From positions 62,001 to 126,000 of the forward strand of contig NZ_VOLT01000006.1 of assembly GCF_007954275.1 (NCBI RefSeq): a stretch of 64,000 nt of DNA, in the 5' to 3' direction. Every line of letters begins with the position of its first letter. The stretch's first letter is position 1. This document shows, one piece after another, positions 6,759-48,161 of the stretch. Source of the stretch: Colwellia demingiae. GTDB lineage: Bacteria > Pseudomonadota > Gammaproteobacteria > Enterobacterales > Alteromonadaceae. A model generated the notes under the pieces. The model had not been told where the DNA came from. It saw nothing but the letters and a program-made list of their open reading frames with translations, and did no database searches. The translations under genes and the position numbers were made by a program.

Positions 6759-6923
6759 AATAGGTGTTTCTCTAATTACTTTTCATTAATCGTTATTTAC
6801 TAATTGATCGTTATGAATTTAAAATTATTAATCATTATTTATTAATGAATACTTACTAATTTTAAATTACTAAGTGTAATGAGTAACTTCAAGTTACTCA
6901 TTACTAATTGCTATATGAGCAAA
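6759..6923 (-). other. Structured pstA-pstB intergenic spacer
   Basis: Very AT-rich. It contains a perfect 13-bp-arm hairpin with a 3-nt loop at 6876-6904 (GTAATGAGTAACT/AGTTACTCATTAC), ending 20 bp from the pstA stop, and 11-bp arms AATTTAAAATT / AATTTTAAATT flanking a second AT-rich segment upstream of pstB. In a pstCAB transcript these could act as an mRNA-processing or stability element, or attenuate pstB. This is inference from base pairing only. Confidence 0.55.
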
Positions 6924-8561
6924 CTAATGCTCTAACATCTTATATCTTTCACGTAATTTATTACGGATTGAAACGGCGGTCATATTCAAAGCAACAATAA
7001 TGCTTACCAAGAGTAAAGCTGTTGCATAAACCAGAGGTCTTGCCGCTTCAACATTTGGACTTTGGAAACCGACATCATAAATATGAAAGCCTAAATGCAT
7101 GAACTTTCTATCTAAATGTAAGAAGGGGAAATTGCCATCCAAAGGTAAATTAGGCGCCATTTTAACCACACCTACCAACATTAATGGAGCTACTTCGCCT
7201 GCAGCTCTGGCAATTGCTAAAATAATACCCGTCATAATAGCTGGGCTAGCAATAGGTAAAATGATTCGCCACAACGTTTCGGCCTTGGTTGCACCTAACG
7301 CTAGTGAACCATGGCGCATCGCCGAAGGAATGCGTGATAAGCCTTCTTCTGTTGAAACAATAACTACCGGTAAAGTTAATATTGCCAGTGTTAACGCTGA
7401 CCATAAAACACCTGGTGTACCAAAGGTAGGACTGGGTAAATTTTCAGAATAAAACAATTGGTCGAGTGAACCACCAACCATATAGACAAAAAAGCCTAAA
7501 CCAAAGACCCCATAAACAATAGATGGCACGCCAGCTAAATTGATAACAGCAATACGTAACAACTTGGTAAAAGCATTTTTACCTGCATATTCATGTAAAT
7601 AAATAGCTGCGATGACACCAAAGGGTGACACGATGACCGTCATTAATAACACCATAAGCACGGTACCAAAAATAGCTGGAAATACACCACCCTCTGTATT
7701 AGCTTCACGAGGGTCTTCTATTAGAAAGGATGCTATGTGACTAAAGAATAAACCTGTTTTCTCGATAATATTCAGTTGATTATTAAAAGTAACTTTCAGG
7801 ATATATTCAAAGTTTATCGTTACTAACTGACCATCCATAGCACGCATAACAATATGATCACGCGATATCTCTTCTCGATATCCCATCAATTCCTGTTCCA
7901 ATAATGCGTACTCTTGATTTAGTGTCGCTATTTCGCTGTCAATTTGTGCTTGTAACTCAGGTGTTAGCTTATCTTGTAATTGATATTTACGCGTTTTTAA
8001 GCGCAAACGCTCTAACTGATAGTTGATAGCGCCGATGTCTGACTTTTGCAAATCATCAATCTGCTCTTGAAAATTATCAACACGCGTTAATAATTCAGAC
8101 AACTTATTTTTATCTACTTCTTTTCCATCAACAACAACGCTTTCAATAAAACCGTAAAAATTACCATTAGTACGACGTTCAACAACGACTAAGTCTTTTG
8201 GTGTTTGCGTCTTTTGAATGTTATGACTTAACAACCAACGAAAATCTAAACTAACCAGCTCTCGGTTACCTGTTTTAATTAACAGACGTTCTAATATTTC
8301 TTGCTCTGGATCAAGCGCCAAATTTAAATGTGCTAATTGGCTTACTGGGATTTGCTCTCTATCGTAGATTTCACCAATAACAACACTTTTAGCGCCATGT
8401 TGATCGGTAAGTTCAAATTGATATAGCTCACTTGGCCAGAAATATGACAAGCCGCGTGATGCGATAAGCCAAAGCAGACCTAACACTGAAATTAAACTGA
8501 TACTTACGCCACCCGCAGAAAGCCATATCCAAGGTGAACCTGATTTAAACCACTTATTCAT
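6924..8561 (-). CDS. pstA: Phosphate ABC transporter permease PstA, enlarged form
   Basis: 545 residues, against about 296 for E. coli PstA. One membrane segment at about 13-36 is followed by a roughly 250-residue periplasmic insert, with a coiled-coil-prone part at about 150-230 (repeated Gln/Glu/Leu heptads), then the canonical permease domain from about 290 with five or more membrane segments. The EAA-type loop is recognisable near GSLALGATKAETLWRIILP. It pairs with PstC to form the channel. The insert is not needed by classical PstA; it is seen in some marine gammaproteobacterial homologues. It starts 186 bp after pstC, across the hairpin element at 8599-8682. Confidence 0.93.
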   Translation of the reverse strand: MNKWFKSGSPWIWLSAGGVSISLISVLGLLWLIASRGLSYFWPSELYQFELTDQHGAKSVVIGEIYDREQIPVSQLAHLNLALDPEQEILERLLIKTGNRELVSLDFRWLLSHNIQKTQTPKDLVVVERRTNGNFYGFIESVVVDGKEVDKNKLSELLTRVDNFQEQIDDLQKSDIGAINYQLERLRLKTRKYQLQDKLTPELQAQIDSEIATLNQEYALLEQELMGYREEISRDHIVMRAMDGQLVTINFEYILKVTFNNQLNIIEKTGLFFSHIASFLIEDPREANTEGGVFPAIFGTVLMVLLMTVIVSPFGVIAAIYLHEYAGKNAFTKLLRIAVINLAGVPSIVYGVFGLGFFVYMVGGSLDQLFYSENLPSPTFGTPGVLWSALTLAILTLPVVIVSTEEGLSRIPSAMRHGSLALGATKAETLWRIILPIASPAIMTGIILAIARAAGEVAPLMLVGVVKMAPNLPLDGNFPFLHLDRKFMHLGFHIYDVGFQSPNVEAARPLVYATALLLVSIIVALNMTAVSIRNKLRERYKMLEH

Positions 8562-8598
8562 AAATAACTCTTAATTAGTAAGTAACTATTATCTTGTC

Positions 8599-8682
8599 GC
8601 TAGATAGCCCAATTTATGTATCAAAAGTACTCATTGATAGTCATCAACTCCGTGCTTTTTCTTTTAAATTGAGCAATCTAGC
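8599..8682. repeat. 84-bp covarying hairpin element, copy 1
   Basis: A long imperfect hairpin: outer arms GCTAGAT/ATCTAGC, then GCCCAATTT/AAATTGAGC, then AAAGTAC/GTGCTTT, then TTGAT/ATCAA at the tip. It aligns without gaps over 84 bases to 48020-48103 (about 55 of 84 identical by eye), with paired changes in the stems. It lies in the pstC-pstA spacer and would be transcribed with the pst operon. Confidence 0.7.
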
Positions 8683-8747
8683 TTAAAGCTGAATAGCTAC
8701 TTTTTCTTAAAATTGTTTGATGTATCTGAAACTTAAAATATTATCTA

Positions 8748-11066
8748 CTACATTGAGCTGTATTTTTCTCGTAATCGTTGACGGACAAACTCTGCTGCTG
8801 TATTGAAAATAAAGGTGAAGATAAAGAGCACAAAGGCAGCCAGGAATAAGATTCGATAATGGGAACTTCCCACTTCAGATTCTGGCATTTCTACGGCAAT
8901 ATTTGCTGCGAGCGTTCTCATACCCTGGAAGATACTCCAATCTAAAATAGGGGTATTACCCGTTGCCATCAATACAATCATAGTTTCACCTACCGCGCGA
9001 CCAAGCCCCATCATAACCGCAGAGAATATACCGGGACTTGCCGTAAGCAACACCACTTTAACAAGTGTTTGCCACTGCGTTGCCCCCAATGCTAATGAAC
9101 CGCTAGTTAGGTGGCCTGGAACACTGAATATTGCATCTTCAGCCATCGAAAATATGGTAGGAATAACAGCAAAACCCATCGCAATGCCAACAACTAAAGC
9201 ATTACGTTGATCAAAGTTGATACCAAGGTCGTTCGTTAGGTATTGACGCATATCCCCATTAAAAAAGGCTAATTCAAGTACACCTGATAAAGAGAATGCC
9301 GCATAAATTGCTAATATCATCACAGGTATCAGTAATAGTGGCGCTAACGTTTCTGGCAGTTTATCTTTCCAATTATTTGGTAGGTTATGCCATGCAAATG
9401 CAGTTATTAGTGTCGATAGAGGTAGGAAGATAAAAAGTAGAAATATTGCCGGTAAATATTCTTCCATTAACGGTGCTAACCATAAACCCGCTAAGAAACC
9501 TAAAATGACGGTAGGTAATGCTTCCATCATTTCAATGGTAGGTTTAACTTTTTTACGCATTCCCGGTGTCATAAAATAGGCAGTATATATTGCAGCAGTT
9601 AAGGCGACAGGTACTGCGAATAACATCGCATATAGAGCCGCTTTAATGGTACCAAAAGAAATAGGTACTAGAGAAAACTTACCTTCAAAATCATCAGAGC
9701 CTGATGTTGATTGCCAGATATAGTCTGGCTCAGGGTAGCCTTCATACCAAACTTCCTGCCATAGCGCTTGCCAAGTAACTTCTGGATGTTCATTATGAAC
9801 ACTAAATGCTTGTAAGCTTTTATTAGAAGCATCAAGAGGATCATTACCAATAATAATCAAGCCATTAGCCCGAGGCGCTATCGCAAACGCTTCTGGTTGA
9901 GCTGAGGAAAGCTTTCCTTGCCAAAGATGTGCCGAGCTGGTGGTATAAAAAACATTGACCATACCGTTATTGGTCATGGTGTAAAAACTCTTTCTATATT
10001 GCTCAGTATAAATAGCGGTTATCGCGTTTGATGCTTGGCTGTTTTTATCATTTGCATCAAAGGTTCTAATTTCTTTAAACTGACGACCTGATTCTGTTGA
10101 GACTTCAAACCACTGACTAACTCGACCACTACTATCACCAAGCAAAACAGAACTACTTCCTGAAAGCAGTGCCATAGAGGTGAGGTAAGTATCGCTATTA
10201 TCTAGGGTCGGTGTAATTGTTGCTTTAAGGCTGACTTCTTCGTCATCGTTTAGTGAATACACATATACCGTTGAAGCGCTTCGGATAAAGGCTAAACTTA
10301 AATCGGGTGTTACTTTTATTTCATCAATGACATCATCAGTCAGCTCAATTTGTTGAAAAATAGTTTCGTATTCAACATCATCTCCATCACTAGAAGAACT
10401 GAAATCATCTTCAGCAATAAAGCTCGTTTTTATTAAACGTTTATCTTCAGTAAAAGCAACAAAAACAATTCTTTCATCATCCATTGCAAAGGCTAATTGA
10501 GAAAGCGGTGTTTGTTGTTCATCAATTATTAATGAACTTTGACCGAGGGGATAATTTACTTGAGGGATTATTTCACGGGTATCATTAGCATATTTAGCAT
10601 AAAAACTTGGCTGAATTAGTAATGTTTTACCCTTGGTGGTATGAAGTAATTTATTCGCTGAAAAAGAGTTAACTACATTAACCACTTTTTCTTGATTGAA
10701 GTCTTCATTTGAAAGTAAAGACATAGAAAGCGCATTATCACCAACAGTAAACTGGTTGTCTGCTTCAGGTGCGCTGGCTTTTAAATGATAGAAATCAATG
10801 TTACCAGTTTCTGTAATTTCATAAGCCACTTCTTGTAACTCATCAACGCCAGTACTTAACACTTTTTCATTAGTTGTTAAGTCAAGACTAATACTAACCT
10901 TCGGCTCAATTTGTGCAGAGTCAAAAATAGGCTTTACGACGTAAAGTAAATACAAAAAAATCAGCACCAGGGTAAACAAAACGCTAATACCACCGAGGGT
11001 AATCAACCATTTTGCCAATGAATTTTTAACCCCACGGCTTCGATTCGAACTAATAAGACTTGCCAC
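8748..11066 (-). CDS. pstC: Phosphate ABC transporter permease PstC, enlarged form with periplasmic propeller-like domain
   Basis: 772 residues; E. coli PstC has 319. A membrane segment at about 18-43 is followed by a periplasmic region of about 430 residues with repeated short strand patterns (for example TVYVYSLNDDEE, SSVLLGDSSGRVSQWFEV, GMVNVFYTTSSAHLWQG) that look like WD40/beta-propeller blades. The typical six-helix permease domain follows from about 475, with the EAA loop GSLALGATQWQTLVKVVLL. It is the first gene of the pst operon, preceded by a possible Pho box. No pstS is present in the window, so the binding protein must be encoded elsewhere. The family assignment rests on the permease domain. 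Confidence 0.92.
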   Translation of the reverse strand: MASLISSNRSRGVKNSLAKWLITLGGISVLFTLVLIFLYLLYVVKPIFDSAQIEPKVSISLDLTTNEKVLSTGVDELQEVAYEITETGNIDFYHLKASAPEADNQFTVGDNALSMSLLSNEDFNQEKVVNVVNSFSANKLLHTTKGKTLLIQPSFYAKYANDTREIIPQVNYPLGQSSLIIDEQQTPLSQLAFAMDDERIVFVAFTEDKRLIKTSFIAEDDFSSSSDGDDVEYETIFQQIELTDDVIDEIKVTPDLSLAFIRSASTVYVYSLNDDEEVSLKATITPTLDNSDTYLTSMALLSGSSSVLLGDSSGRVSQWFEVSTESGRQFKEIRTFDANDKNSQASNAITAIYTEQYRKSFYTMTNNGMVNVFYTTSSAHLWQGKLSSAQPEAFAIAPRANGLIIIGNDPLDASNKSLQAFSVHNEHPEVTWQALWQEVWYEGYPEPDYIWQSTSGSDDFEGKFSLVPISFGTIKAALYAMLFAVPVALTAAIYTAYFMTPGMRKKVKPTIEMMEALPTVILGFLAGLWLAPLMEEYLPAIFLLFIFLPLSTLITAFAWHNLPNNWKDKLPETLAPLLLIPVMILAIYAAFSLSGVLELAFFNGDMRQYLTNDLGINFDQRNALVVGIAMGFAVIPTIFSMAEDAIFSVPGHLTSGSLALGATQWQTLVKVVLLTASPGIFSAVMMGLGRAVGETMIVLMATGNTPILDWSIFQGMRTLAANIAVEMPESEVGSSHYRILFLAAFVLFIFTFIFNTAAEFVRQRLREKYSSM

Positions 11067-32622: not shown

Positions 32623-32680
32623 AAAAGCCTCTTTTTATAGGGTGATAAAAAATAATGATATTATCTTTTATCGGTGATTA

Positions 32681-32720
32681 TTTAATAGGTAATAATTTAA
32701 TAGGTAATAATTTAATAGGT
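32681..32720. repeat. 15-bp tandem repeat in the pilT-yggS promoter region
   Basis: About 2.7 exact copies of TTTAATAGGTAATAA. Just before it, 32644-32672 is a nearly perfect hairpin (GATAAAA..TTTTATC). Both lie in the 145-bp divergent promoter. Confidence 0.8.
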
Positions 32721-32767
32721 TATACTAACCAGAAAATAAGATAAGTTAACATAGCTCAATATTTAAC

Positions 32768-44037: not shown

Positions 44038-47000
44038 ATGACGATGTTGATTAAAAACCTTCGTGGCGCTCCAGCACTTTCTGACTTCAGAGTTAAAAAA
44101 CTATTAGCTCAATGTGAACAGTTACAACTGCCAGTAAATGACATTTATGCTGAATTCGCCCATTTCGCTAAACTTAATCAAGAATTAAGCGCAAGTGAAG
44201 AGAAAGTTTTACAGCAATTACTTACTTACGGCCCAACAATTGAAGAACATCAACCTGCTGGTTTGTTTTTATTAGTGACTCCTCGTCCAGGCACTATTTC
44301 TCCTTGGTCATCAAAATCTACTGATATAGCCCACAACTGTGGTTTAGCTAAAGTGGAGCGTCTAGAGCGTGGTATTGCTTATTACGTAACATTAGAAAGT
44401 GATGCACAATTAAGCGCCAATCAAGAAACACAGTTAAACGCGCTATTGCACGACCGTATGATGGAAAGTATTTTTAATGATTTCGCCCAAGCAAGTACCT
44501 TATTCGCGAGTAGTGAACCAGGCGAGTTAACCGTAATTGATATTGAAAATGGCGGAAAAAATGCCTTAGTTCAAGCCAATATTGAATTAGGTCTTGCATT
44601 AGCAGAAGACGAAGTTAATTATTTATTCGAAAACTTCAGTAAATTAGGTCGCAACCCTCACGACATTGAGCTTTACATGTTTGCACAAGCAAACTCTGAG
44701 CATTGTCGCCATAAAATATTCAACGCAGACTGGACTATTGACGGCGTTAAACAAGAAAAATCTTTGTTTAAAATGATCCGTAATACCCATGAGATTAACA
44801 GTGATTACGTACTCAGCGCTTATAGTGATAATGCCGCGGTAATGGTTGGTAATAAGGGCGGTCGCTTCTTCCCTAACCCTGAAACGAATGTTTATGGTTA
44901 TAACCATGAAGACATTAAAATATTAATGAAAGTTGAAACCCATAACCACCCTACGGCAATTTCTCCTTACCCTGGTGCTGCAACAGGCTCAGGTGGTGAA
45001 ATTCGTGACGAAGGCGCAACAGGTATCGGCTCAAAACCTAAAGCTGGTTTAGTGGGTTTCTCTGTATCTAACCTACGTATTCCTGATTTTGTACAACCTT
45101 GGGAAACTGATTTTGGTAAACCAAGCCGCATTGTTACTGCTTTCGATATTATGATGGAAGGCCCATTAGGTGGCGCTGCATTTAACAATGAATTTGGTCG
45201 TCCGGCTATTTTAGGTTACTTCCGTACGTATGAAGAAGAAGTTAACTCGTTTAACGGTAAAGAAGTACGCGGTTATCACAAGCCGATTATGCTTGCTGGT
45301 GGTTTAGGTAACATTCGTGATGAACACGTACAAAAACGCGAAATTATCGTTGGCGCTAACTTAATAGCTCTTGGTGGCCCGGCCATGAACATTGGTTTAG
45401 GTGGCGGTGCGGCTTCATCAATGGCATCAGGTCAATCAGCTGAAAGTTTAGACTTTGCTTCTGTTCAACGTGAGAACCCTGAAATGGAACGTCGTTGCCA
45501 AGAAGTTATCGATAAGTGTTGGCAACTAGGTGAAGAGAATCCAATCGCCTTCATTCATGATGTTGGTGCAGGTGGTTTATCTAATGCTTTCCCTGAATTA
45601 GTTTCTGATGGCGGCCGTGGTGGTGTTTTTGAACTGCGTAATGTACCAAATGACGAGCGTAGTATGGCGCCTCATGAAATCTGGTGTAATGAATCTCAAG
45701 AGCGTTATGTTATTGCGGTATCTGACAAAAATTTAGCTGCTTTTGAACAAATATGTGCCCGCGAACGTGCACCCTATGCTGTTGTAGGTCGCGCAACTGA
45801 AGAATTACACTTAACCGTTACTGATGAACATTTCGCTAATGATGAGAAATTAAATACGCCAATTGATTTACCACTTGACGTATTACTAGGTAAAACTCCT
45901 AAAATATTTAAAGACGTTAAAACGGCAACCGCTGCTGGCGACTCATTAGATTTAAGCAATGTCACATTAACTGACGCTGCAGATAGAATTTTGAGCTTAC
46001 CAACCGTTGCTGAGAAAACGTTCCTTATCACTATTGGTGATCGTTCAGTAACCGGTATGGTTAATCGTGACCAAATGGTTGGTCCTTGGCAGGTTCCTGT
46101 TGCAGACTGTGGTGTAACTGCCTCAGCGCTTGATTCATACCACGGCGAAGCAATGTCTTTAGGTGAGCGTACTCCTGTTGCTTTACTAAACTTTGGGGCT
46201 TCAGCTCGTTTAGCTGTAGCTGAGTCACTGACGAACATCGCTGGTACTGATATTGCTGGTTCTGACGGTGAGAGGTTAAACCGTATTAAGCTTTCAGCTA
46301 ACTGGATGTCTCCAGCAGGTCACCCAGGCGAAGATGCCGGTCTTTACGAAGCAGTTAAAGCTATTGGTGAAGAGCTTTGTCCAGCGCTTGGTTTAACCAT
46401 TCCAGTGGGTAAAGACTCTATGTCGATGAAAACCCAGTGGGAAGAAGATGGCAAGAAAAAATCGGTTACTTCACCACTTTCTCTTGTTATTACCGCTTTT
46501 GGTGTTGTTGAAGATATCCGTAAAACAGTTACTCCTGAGCTAAGAACAGATAAAGGTGACACTCGCCTTGTTGCTATCGACTTGTCAAAAGGTAAAAAGC
46601 GTTTAGGTGGTTCATGTTTAGCACAAGTTTATAAACAGCTTGGTAGTGAAACCCCTGATGTTGACGATGCAGAAGTATTAAAAGGTTTCTTCAATGCGAT
46701 GCAAGCACTTGTTCGCGCTGAAAAGGTTATTGCTTATCATGATATTTCAGACGGTGGTTTATTCACTACCGTTACTGAAATGGCCTTTGCTGGCCATACT
46801 GGTGTTGATATTGATATCAGTAAAATATCAACCGGTGCTAGCGATGATTTAGCCACTTTATTTAATGAAGAATTAGGTGCAGTTATTCAAATTCGTGAAA
46901 GCGATGTTGACACCATTCACGCTATTTTAGCTGAGCACGGTGTTCTAGATTTATGTACTGATATCGGTCGACTCAATAACGAAGATACTATTCGCTTTAG

Positions 47001-48012
47001 CCGCGATGGTGAAGTGGTCTTAGAAAACTCTCGTACTTATTACCGTACCGTGTGGGCACAAACGACTTACAGAATGCAGTCACTTCGTGATAACCCAGAA
47101 TGTGCGCAACAAGAACATGATGTTAAATTTGATACTGAAGATCCAGGCTTAAACACCGAATTAACGTTTGATATTAACGAAGACATAGTTAGCGATTTAA
47201 TCGTAAAAGATGCACAAAATAGTGCTGACGGAATTGTTAACCCACGTGTTGCTATTTTACGTGAGCAAGGTGTTAACTCGCATGTTGAAATGGCTGCAGC
47301 TTTTGATAGAGCGGGTTTTGTTGCTATTGACGTGCATATGTCTGACATTTTATCAGGTCGTACTGACTTAGTTGACTTCAATGGTTTAGTTGCTTGTGGT
47401 GGTTTCTCATACGGTGATGTTTTAGGTGCTGGTGAAGGTTGGGCAAAATCAATCTTATTTAATGCCGATGCTAGAGCAATGTTTAAAGCATTCTTCGAAC
47501 GTGAAGATACCTTCACGTTAGGTGTGTGTAATGGTTGTCAAATGTTGTCTAACTTAAAAGACATCATTCCTGGCTCAGAGCATTGGCCTCACTTTGTACA
47601 AAACAAATCAGAGCGTTTTGAAGCACGCTTCTCATTAGTTGAAATTCAAGAGAGTCCTTCAGTGTTATTTAAAGGCATGGAAGGTTCACGTATGCCTATT
47701 GCTGTTTCGCACGGTGAAGGTCATGCCGAGTTTAGTTCTGATGCTGCTATTGATGCTGCTAACAACTCAGGTACGGTATCAATGCGTTACGTAAATAACT
47801 ACGGTGACGTTACTGAAACTTACCCAGCCAACCCTAATGGCTCTGTTGATGGTATTACATCATTAACCACCACTGATGGCCGTGTAACTATTATGATGCC
47901 ACATCCTGAACGTGTATTTAGAACGGTTGCTAACTCTTGGCATCCTGATAGCTGGGGTGAAGATTCACCTTGGGTTCGCATGTTCCGTAACGCTCGTGCT
48001 TTTATTGGCTAA
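44038..48012 (+). CDS. purL: Phosphoribosylformylglycinamidine synthase (FGAM synthetase)
   Basis: 1324 residues, the large single-chain form of gammaproteobacteria. PurS-like N-terminal domain (from about 8, [16 protein letters not shown]), two AIRS/PurM-like halves with [31 protein letters not shown] near 300 and [13 protein letters not shown] near 800, and a C-terminal class I glutaminase with nucleophile Cys in [11 protein letters not shown] (about 1164) and the His/Glu of [10 protein letters not shown]. It converts FGAR to FGAM using glutamine and ATP in purine synthesis. It is a monocistronic unit closed by a strong terminator. Confidence 0.97.
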
Positions 48013-48019
48013 TCTTTTT

Positions 48020-48103
48020 GCTGTTAAAGCCAAGTTCTTTGTCGAAAGTACTAACTGACATTCGTCAGCTCCGTGCTTTCTTCGTGAACTTGACTCAATC
48101 AGC
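48020..48103. repeat. 84-bp covarying hairpin element, copy 2
   Basis: It aligns without gaps to 8599-8682. The stems are kept although the bases differ: AAGTTC/GAACTT here for AATTT/AAATT there, CTGAC/GTCAG for TTGAT/ATCAA. CTCCGTGCTTT is identical in both. It begins 8 bp after the purL stop, so it lies in the purL 3' untranslated region. Confidence 0.7.
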
Positions 48104-48133
48104 TTCAAGATACTCTGATTAATTCGACAAACT

Positions 48134-48161
48134 AAAAACCGACACTTGCTGTCGGTTTTTT
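48134..48161. terminator. Rho-independent terminator of purL
   Basis: Stem AAAAACCGACA / TGTCGGTTTTT with loop CTTGC and a following T tract. Confidence 0.93.

Follow-up and report, generated by a model that had tools for sequence, protein, structure and literature searches.

The window analysed here, a stretch of 64,000 nt from the genome of Colwellia demingiae, carries the same imperfect palindrome in a spacer of the pst operon and at the 3′ end of purL. What kind of element is shared by two such unrelated places, and does its conserved pairing speak of a functional RNA?

Two copies of one long palindrome

The ungapped alignment of 8599–8682 with 48020–48103 put forward in a preliminary description of this DNA was recovered, with 55 of 84 bases equal (65.5 %), and the paired differences that it named are present in the pst and purL copies. 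Comparison of 84 nt without gaps over all window positions gave a mean of 22.6 matches (sd 4.1), and the runner-up place had 42, the element’s own reverse strand (48) being set aside. The 84-bp hairpin is real but too short, being the inner part of an imperfect palindrome of about 120 nt. The relevant features of the window are as follows.

8580..8702, + strand: full hairpin of the pst-spacer copy (ERIC-like element), 123 nt, antisense to the pst operon
8599..8682, + strand: inner 84 nt of the pst copy, 55/84 identity with 48020–48103
8623..8658, + strand: conserved apical core of the pst copy, from alignment A1
48006..48119, + strand: purL copy (ERIC-like element), sense, with the purL stop codon inside its base
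48020..48103, + strand: inner 84 nt of the purL copy, from the earlier alignment
48044..48079, + strand: conserved apical core of the purL copy, from the alignment
44038..48012, + strand: purL (phosphoribosylformylglycinamidine synthase; NF003672, 2140 bits), upstream of the sense copy
48134..48160, + strand: terminator-like hairpin (intrinsic type) 3′ of the purL copy, from a consensus scan only
8748..11066, − strand: pstC-like permease gene (TIGR02138, 196.8 bits against a cut-off of 196.45)
6924..8561, − strand: pstA (TIGR00974, 251.5 bits)

A covariance model of 114 positions (R1) matched the pst copy at 8585–8698 (112.7 bits, E 1.7e-25) and the purL copy at 48006–48119 (106.7 bits, E 5.7e-24), the E-values of such models being rough; its only other matches in the window at E<=1 were the reverse strands of these two copies. 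A second covariance model (R2), built from 104 copies with no ERIC-core locus included, returned the two known copies over the 64-kb window at E<=10 and nothing else. The minimum-energy fold of the pst copy is a single long hairpin over 8580–8702, the ends of which read gTAACTATT...AATAGCTAC, and the apical core has the form AAAGTAC-TCA-TTGAY-loop-RTCAA-CTCC-GTGCTTT. The segment CTCCGTGCTTT, first described as invariant, is well conserved but only partly invariant among 15 copies from the same genome.

The pst copy does lie in the pstC–pstA spacer, in antisense orientation to the operon, with the pstC-like gene upstream of it in the presumed transcript and the pstA start 23 nt from its model end. 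The purL copy has the opposite, sense orientation, and its earlier placement just after purL is not wholly right, as the model match begins 4 nt before the stop codon (48010–48012). One intrinsic-terminator-like hairpin was found 3′ of this copy, with 0.3 expected by chance; given this candidate at 48134–48160, the element would sit within the purL 3′ UTR. The window also contains short tandem repeats at 6785–6873 (a 42-bp unit, 2.1 times) and 32666–32724 (a 15-bp unit, three times).

A dispersed family in the order

The preliminary description knew of two copies only. Instead, the genome (5.2 Mb) contains a dispersed family, with 20 places found by blastn and 39 rows of model R1 at E<=0.1; these rows represent at least 38 copies, one row being the reverse-strand reading of another and one being partial, with 150 of the 3626 candidates scored. 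Relatives of the R1 type occur in at least 47 of 118 genomes (24 of 52 genera) of a sample of Alteromonadaceae, and a sample at the level of the order gave a match in at least 50 of 197 genomes (13 of 79 genera); the two samples share some genomes, and both searches were filtered more strictly and scored a capped number of candidates. The exact core pattern was present in at least 115 stretches among bacterial contigs, and the 80 matches listed were nearly all from Colwellia, with a few from Litorilituus, Alteromonadaceae and Gammaproteobacteria. The copies are intergenic: an overlap of over 20 nt with a called ORF was seen in only three of 119 rows and, in the family and order set, in one of 67.

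A structured cis-regulatory RNA of the riboswitch kind, or an independent small RNA, that controls pst and purL would account for the strong covariation reported below, but the element follows many unrelated genes, its orientations at pst and purL are opposite and no Rfam family matches it, all of which makes this explanation very improbable. Rfam gave no match in the 64-kb window at gathering scores and nothing on the element in 11 loci at E<=1, where its only hits, both off the element, were a lysine riboswitch and a mir-183 that was weak and fell short of the gathering score. In the regions of the two copies, promoter-like sites were not above chance (one against 1.4 expected, none against 0.8 expected). 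With no Rfam match and promoter-like sites at chance level, a riboswitch or small RNA specific to pst and purL was rejected.

Ends and mobility

By inspection, the ends of the Colwellia copies read gTAACTATTCA...TGAATAGTTAc, with a terminal inverted repeat (TIR) of the form (TA)ACTATTCA. One relative (G270) has eight identical 170-bp units (L311–L318, L319–L326) in differing flanks, each an ERIC-like core with an extra hairpin in the 3′ arm and the ends TAACTACTCAG...CTGAGTAGTTA. TA stands at both ends in all eight units and gTAc surrounds the insertion in seven. Because identical units stand in different flanks, this kind of element is, or was recently, mobile in that genome. The TA ends seen on inspection suggest that TA is the target of the element and may be duplicated on insertion, but no clean empty site was found, and four purL loci that lack the element (L185, L188, L198 and L202) showed no recognizable target duplication. 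A search of one relative with the TIR pattern gave 17 places, nine of them exact and including the eight units, against four for the reversed-pattern control, and this light search identified no insertion sequence with such ends that could be the parent transposase.

The TIRs, the TA ends and the mobile units of the one relative are what would be expected of a selfish, ERIC-like miniature element (MITE) that targets TA and has no host function, its placement reflecting target preference together with loss from coding and promoter DNA. We regard this reading as unlikely, for reasons that come from the placement, the recurrence and the pairing of the copies.

Placement at stop codons

A simple ORF finder served to call the genes on either side of each copy in the loci examined. 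From 40, 99, 58 and 70 model rows, the first 34, 85, 43 and 67 were kept, which gave 229 rows from the own genome, pattern-selected Colwellia, orthologue loci and the family and order set, respectively; the 60 stretches of the last set were hand-picked among high-scoring rows and are not random. The rows left out were mostly reverse-strand readings of kept copies, plus four weak places (L166 1714–1818, L183 2180–2284, L186 2167–2270 and L221 2071–2128), the last of which is a weak partial match at a pst site and was counted as absent. L162, a repeat of two L158 copies, was excluded from the own-genome count, and at least two records are common to the pattern and family sets (L063/L228 and L098/L230).

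Both neighbours were known for 210 rows, of which 147 were sense-tandem, 40 antisense-tandem, 20 sense-convergent and three divergent. When each combination of orientation class and upstream gene cluster was counted once, 77 sites remained (52, 12, 11 and two in the same order), and the own genome alone (n=29) gave 21, four, four and none. The sense bias is strong both among distinct tandem sites (52 against 12, binomial p 5e-7) and in the own genome (21 against four, p 9e-4). The position is also narrow: 54 of 63 distinct sense copies, and 23 of 25 in the own genome, begin at −8 to +10 nt from the stop codon of the gene upstream, and the Kolmogorov–Smirnov test rejected uniform placement in the spacer both for 48 sites (p 2e-30) and for 20 own-genome sites (p 2e-15). 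At the 12 distinct antisense sites, the start codon that follows is 6–35 nt away. In two order-level genomes, a single spacer contains two elements in inverted arrangement (L276, 1501–1614 on the + and 1693–1806 on the − strand; L277, 1501–1614 on the + and 1686–1799 on the − strand), with the sense element at the stop of a gene ending in RHFRH (the purH cluster) and the antisense element 14 nt before the next start codon.

This stop-codon rule is sharper than any that we found described in the openly licensed literature on ERIC and related repeats. Judged by titles and the opening of abstracts, that literature held nothing in point on intergenic repeats or small RNAs of Colwellia or Alteromonas, and a search for Colwellia with repetitive extragenic palindromes gave only Pseudidiomarina taxonomy. 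The small number of copies between divergent genes (two of 77 distinct sites) is in keeping with a selfish MITE that is lost from promoter DNA, but a strand bias of 52 to 12 is not readily given by target preference when the two ends are nearly symmetrical.

Upstream genes and recurrence of sites

The genes upstream of the copies are mostly housekeeping genes, such as purL, purH, guaB, guaA, dnaK, groES, eno, infB, mreB and lapB. Among the upstream representatives, NCBIfam named purH, dapD, yajC, mreB, guaA, lapB, guaB, dnaK, gspG, rplT, leuC, infB, eno, flgI, groES, glyA, secA, dnaB, cysN, nqrF, ilvE, iscA, acnB, carB, tuf, kbl, murA, prpB, moaB, prs, a guanine deaminase, a peroxiredoxin, a partial gyrB and a partial acnD-like aconitase, while a metA-like gene fell just under its cut-off; 50 upstream proteins were named in this way, three of them without a family at E<=1e-20 and some others below any cut-off. 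At dapD, nine of ten loci searched combine a lysine riboswitch (RF00168) upstream of the gene with the element at its stop codon (for example, L144 331–577).

Thirty of 75 orientation–gene sites recur under at least two genus labels, several such labels both being Colwellia, and the sites common to different genera include lapB, purH, infB, mreB, guaB, guaA, dnaK, eno, rplT, groES and yajC. Within the genus, purL was present in 37 of 39 genomes, and the purL site is filled in 26 of 30 loci searched, the own locus included. The antisense copies are conserved too, with the pst site filled in 17 of 24 loci searched. Across genera, copies at the same site have a mean identity of 0.62 (78 pairs, one of which is the same record twice) against 0.53 for copies at different sites. 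The figure is uneven between gene borders, so that some sites seem to be inherited whereas re-use is possible at others. If the element were a selfish MITE, slow decay and insertion hot spots would have to explain the recurring sites; the same-site copies at purH (0.54), eno (0.55) and secA (0.49), which are no closer than others, agree with this, but those at guaB (0.72) and mreB (0.80) stand above the background. By eye, the purL copy L189, compared with L184 and L176, looks like a mosaic with outer arms of one type and an inner stem of another, which suggests recombination or conversion between copies.

Covariation and the scarcity of G–U pairs

The two outcomes that the preliminary description had said would count against it, no further hits and no covariation in more copies, were both looked for: more hits were found and the covariation survives. 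The 15 own-genome copies have 85.8 % of their cells paired, with changes on both sides in 29 of 39 pairs (shuffled mean 18.2), whereas sliding the structure by one to three columns left 30–41 % paired and none of 500 shuffles reached the covariation score. For 103 distinct copies from several families, in an alignment that was fitted to the model and so leans towards it, 86.9 % of cells pair, both sides have changed in 1084 cells (349 in shuffles), and the covariation score of 0.664 compares with 0.212 for the shuffles. Double changes occur in 38 of the 39 pairs, a less telling figure as shuffles average 34.8. At one locus, the pst spacer, the stem is preserved among orthologues although its letters differ, which argues against a selfish MITE without function.

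The covariation had been taken to point to selection on structure. It does exceed both controls, shuffled and slid columns, but is not in itself a sign of selection on RNA, because G–U steps are nearly absent and orientation makes no significant difference. RNA selection on one strand should make G–U pairs common and A–C mismatches rare on that strand. With one nearly invariant U–G pair left out, G–U made up 72 of 3897 cells in the 103 copies (observed/expected 0.18) and A–C, the commoner of the two, 147 (0.32); the two inner helices had 14 G–U and 11 A–C cells, and other copy sets agree with the overall scarcity of G–U. The prediction that G–U would exceed A–C in sense copies and drop in antisense copies failed, the G–U share being 0.32 in sense and 0.26 in antisense copies with overlapping intervals. 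Of the pairs in minimum-energy folds, 6.6 % were G–U on the model strand, a figure that counts the nearly invariant U–G pair, and 7.9 % on the opposite strand; a small control, one riboswitch stem from nine Colwellia-set loci, had 16 %. Scarce G–U pairs with similar values on both strands make the constraint look nearly strand-symmetric. The nearly invariant U–G pair has become U–A in nine of 17 pst-site orthologues, which are of the antisense class, and in three of 26 at the purL site.

These observations bear on a third explanation, namely that the palindrome is kept at the DNA level, through quasipalindrome correction during replication or through a transposition protein that reads folded single-stranded DNA, in which case covariation is not evidence of RNA function. 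Watson–Crick double changes almost without G–U steps, A–C cells at least as common as G–U, the lack of a significant orientation effect and folds that are alike on both strands all point this way, and a DNA-level palindrome or a both-strand constraint fits the pairing at least as well as RNA selection. Yet correction to perfection should erase the internal loops, which stay conserved, and the sense bias at stop codons is left unexplained. Counted by pair type, moreover, G–U and A–C lie closer together in the purL set (15 against 13, from 23 and 30 cells) and the pst set (nine against 13, from 11 and 39 cells). Upkeep at the DNA level is a possibility that we think somewhat unlikely. In a dispersed palindrome, even textbook covariation is no proof of a functional RNA, and a near lack of G–U steps offers a simple discriminator.

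Kinship to ERIC

ERIC sequences have been a typing tool for decades, while their function and history long stayed unclear. In reverse complement, the ERIC primer core reads TCACTTAC-loop-GTAAGCTCC, which has the same shape as the core of the Colwellia element. When both strands of 22 ERIC-core loci (65 kb) were scanned, R1 gave nine matches at E<=10, all nine on ERIC copies (best E 0.0016), and R2 gave 18, all 18 on ERICs, in 17 of the 22 loci, one of them a second ERIC in L291. The R2 matches ranged from E 4.7e-5 to 4.4, with 11 at E<=0.02 and seven between 0.07 and 4.4, and five of the 22 loci were missed. All matches of both models fell on the strand opposite to the usual consensus and none on the other, so that reading an equally long hairpin with identical stems from the wrong strand gives no match. 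In four R2 alignments inspected, the lower stem together with the GCGT/CCTT loop made up the score, and the apical stem-loop was skipped; an apex of similar form, with a TCA/CTC(C) internal loop, was seen by inspection of ERIC copies and in the R1 alignment of L292 only.

By BLAST, the 44-nt ERIC core (padded with N) had no match in the own genome at E<=0.001 and matched in 10 of 197 genomes of the order, one of which (G245) has, besides its ERIC-core copy (L299), a copy of the R1 type (L280) with CGTTGG...CCGCCTT. The hairpin appears to be a divergent, order-wide branch of ERIC/IRU, a claim of kinship and not of identity for which we do not hold the absent BLAST-level match to be defining. 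ERIC copies with inserts in the apical part are known, and two own-genome copies (L016 271–455 and L022 283–466) have a related insert of about 70 nt in that part. The element appears to be of a known kind, and what seems new, against the literature covered, is its sense placement at stop codons.

A proposed stop-codon-linked element in the mRNA

We consider it probable that the hairpin is a divergent ERIC/IRU branch of which many surviving copies are kept as an mRNA element linked to the stop codon. The comparisons made here show that the copies form a family, that they pair and are kin to ERIC in sequence–structure profile, that they stand mostly one way at stop codons and that they recur at gene borders common to several genera; a role in mRNA decay we infer from Yersinia ERIC. 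In the proposed model, an imperfect palindrome of about 120 nt with TA ends would insert and then persist for long times, many copies being kept since the hairpin, transcribed in the mRNA at the stop codon, would set the fate of the upstream message. At its base, the hairpin could be opened or closed by a terminating ribosome, and this change would expose or hide an endonuclease site, or else stall 3′ decay, with the outcome that the upstream gene is uncoupled from the next. Antisense copies, that of pst included, would be a minority with a different effect or none. The placement suggests a tuning of the message lifetime of housekeeping genes.

Several observations speak against this mRNA-element reading. 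The ERIC core has no BLAST match in the own genome at E<=0.001, and R2 misses five of 22 ERIC loci, has weak E-values in seven of 18 matches and skips the apex in the four alignments inspected. The near absence of G–U is unlike a hairpin selected only as sense RNA, the antisense copies are conserved as well (17 of 24 loci at the pst site), and the stop-codon placement could stem from insertion near TA-rich gene ends with loss elsewhere.

More speculatively, ERIC as a whole may be an ancient, order-wide 3′-end element, mostly in one orientation, at which termination switches mRNA decay and in which a process acting on DNA, not selection on RNA, preserves the complementarity of the arms; we think this somewhat unlikely. 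If it were true, ERIC would not be an enteric curiosity but a TA-inserting palindrome repeatedly fixed with its base on housekeeping stop codons. A deep relative of ERIC at the stops of purine, chaperone and translation genes, with gene borders common to several genera, makes the question of function testable.

Comparison with known repeat classes

Integron attC sites were dropped on inspection, as the Colwellia element has a conserved centre and variable ends. REP palindromes (RAYT transposases) sit close after stop codons. The Colwellia element is like REP/BIME in having a palindrome near stop codons, but REPs are given as 20–40 bp in PMC3733652, and a length of about 120 nt, with TIRs and TA ends, ruled this class out. 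The NEMIS/Correia element of Neisseria, as outlined in PMC2229807, is a MITE of approximately 107–155 bp with TIRs, TA ends and a hairpin processed by RNase III, a variant of which carries a 50-bp internal piece; compared by description only, it is alike in MITE size, TIRs and TA ends, and differs in its hosts.

ERIC itself (IRU, RU-1) is, according to PMC2229807, 127 bp long and has TIRs and TA ends, and the Yersinia copies are described as lowering upstream transcripts through an RNase E site in an orientation-dependent manner (PMC2229807, PMC10969869). The Colwellia element shares with ERIC the length class, the single long imperfect palindrome, the intergenic position, the many copies and the TIRs with TA ends. 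It differs in length, with 114 model positions against the 137–139 nt spanned in full-length R2 matches to most ERICs, although the ERIC of Vibrio cholerae, likened here by description only, is also shorter, with a model length of 103 (PMC2267715). Its hosts are Colwellia and other families of the order, whereas those named for ERIC in PMC10969869 are Enterobacteriaceae and Vibrionaceae. Lastly, unlike ERIC, the Colwellia-type element is found strongly in the sense orientation at the stop codons of housekeeping genes.
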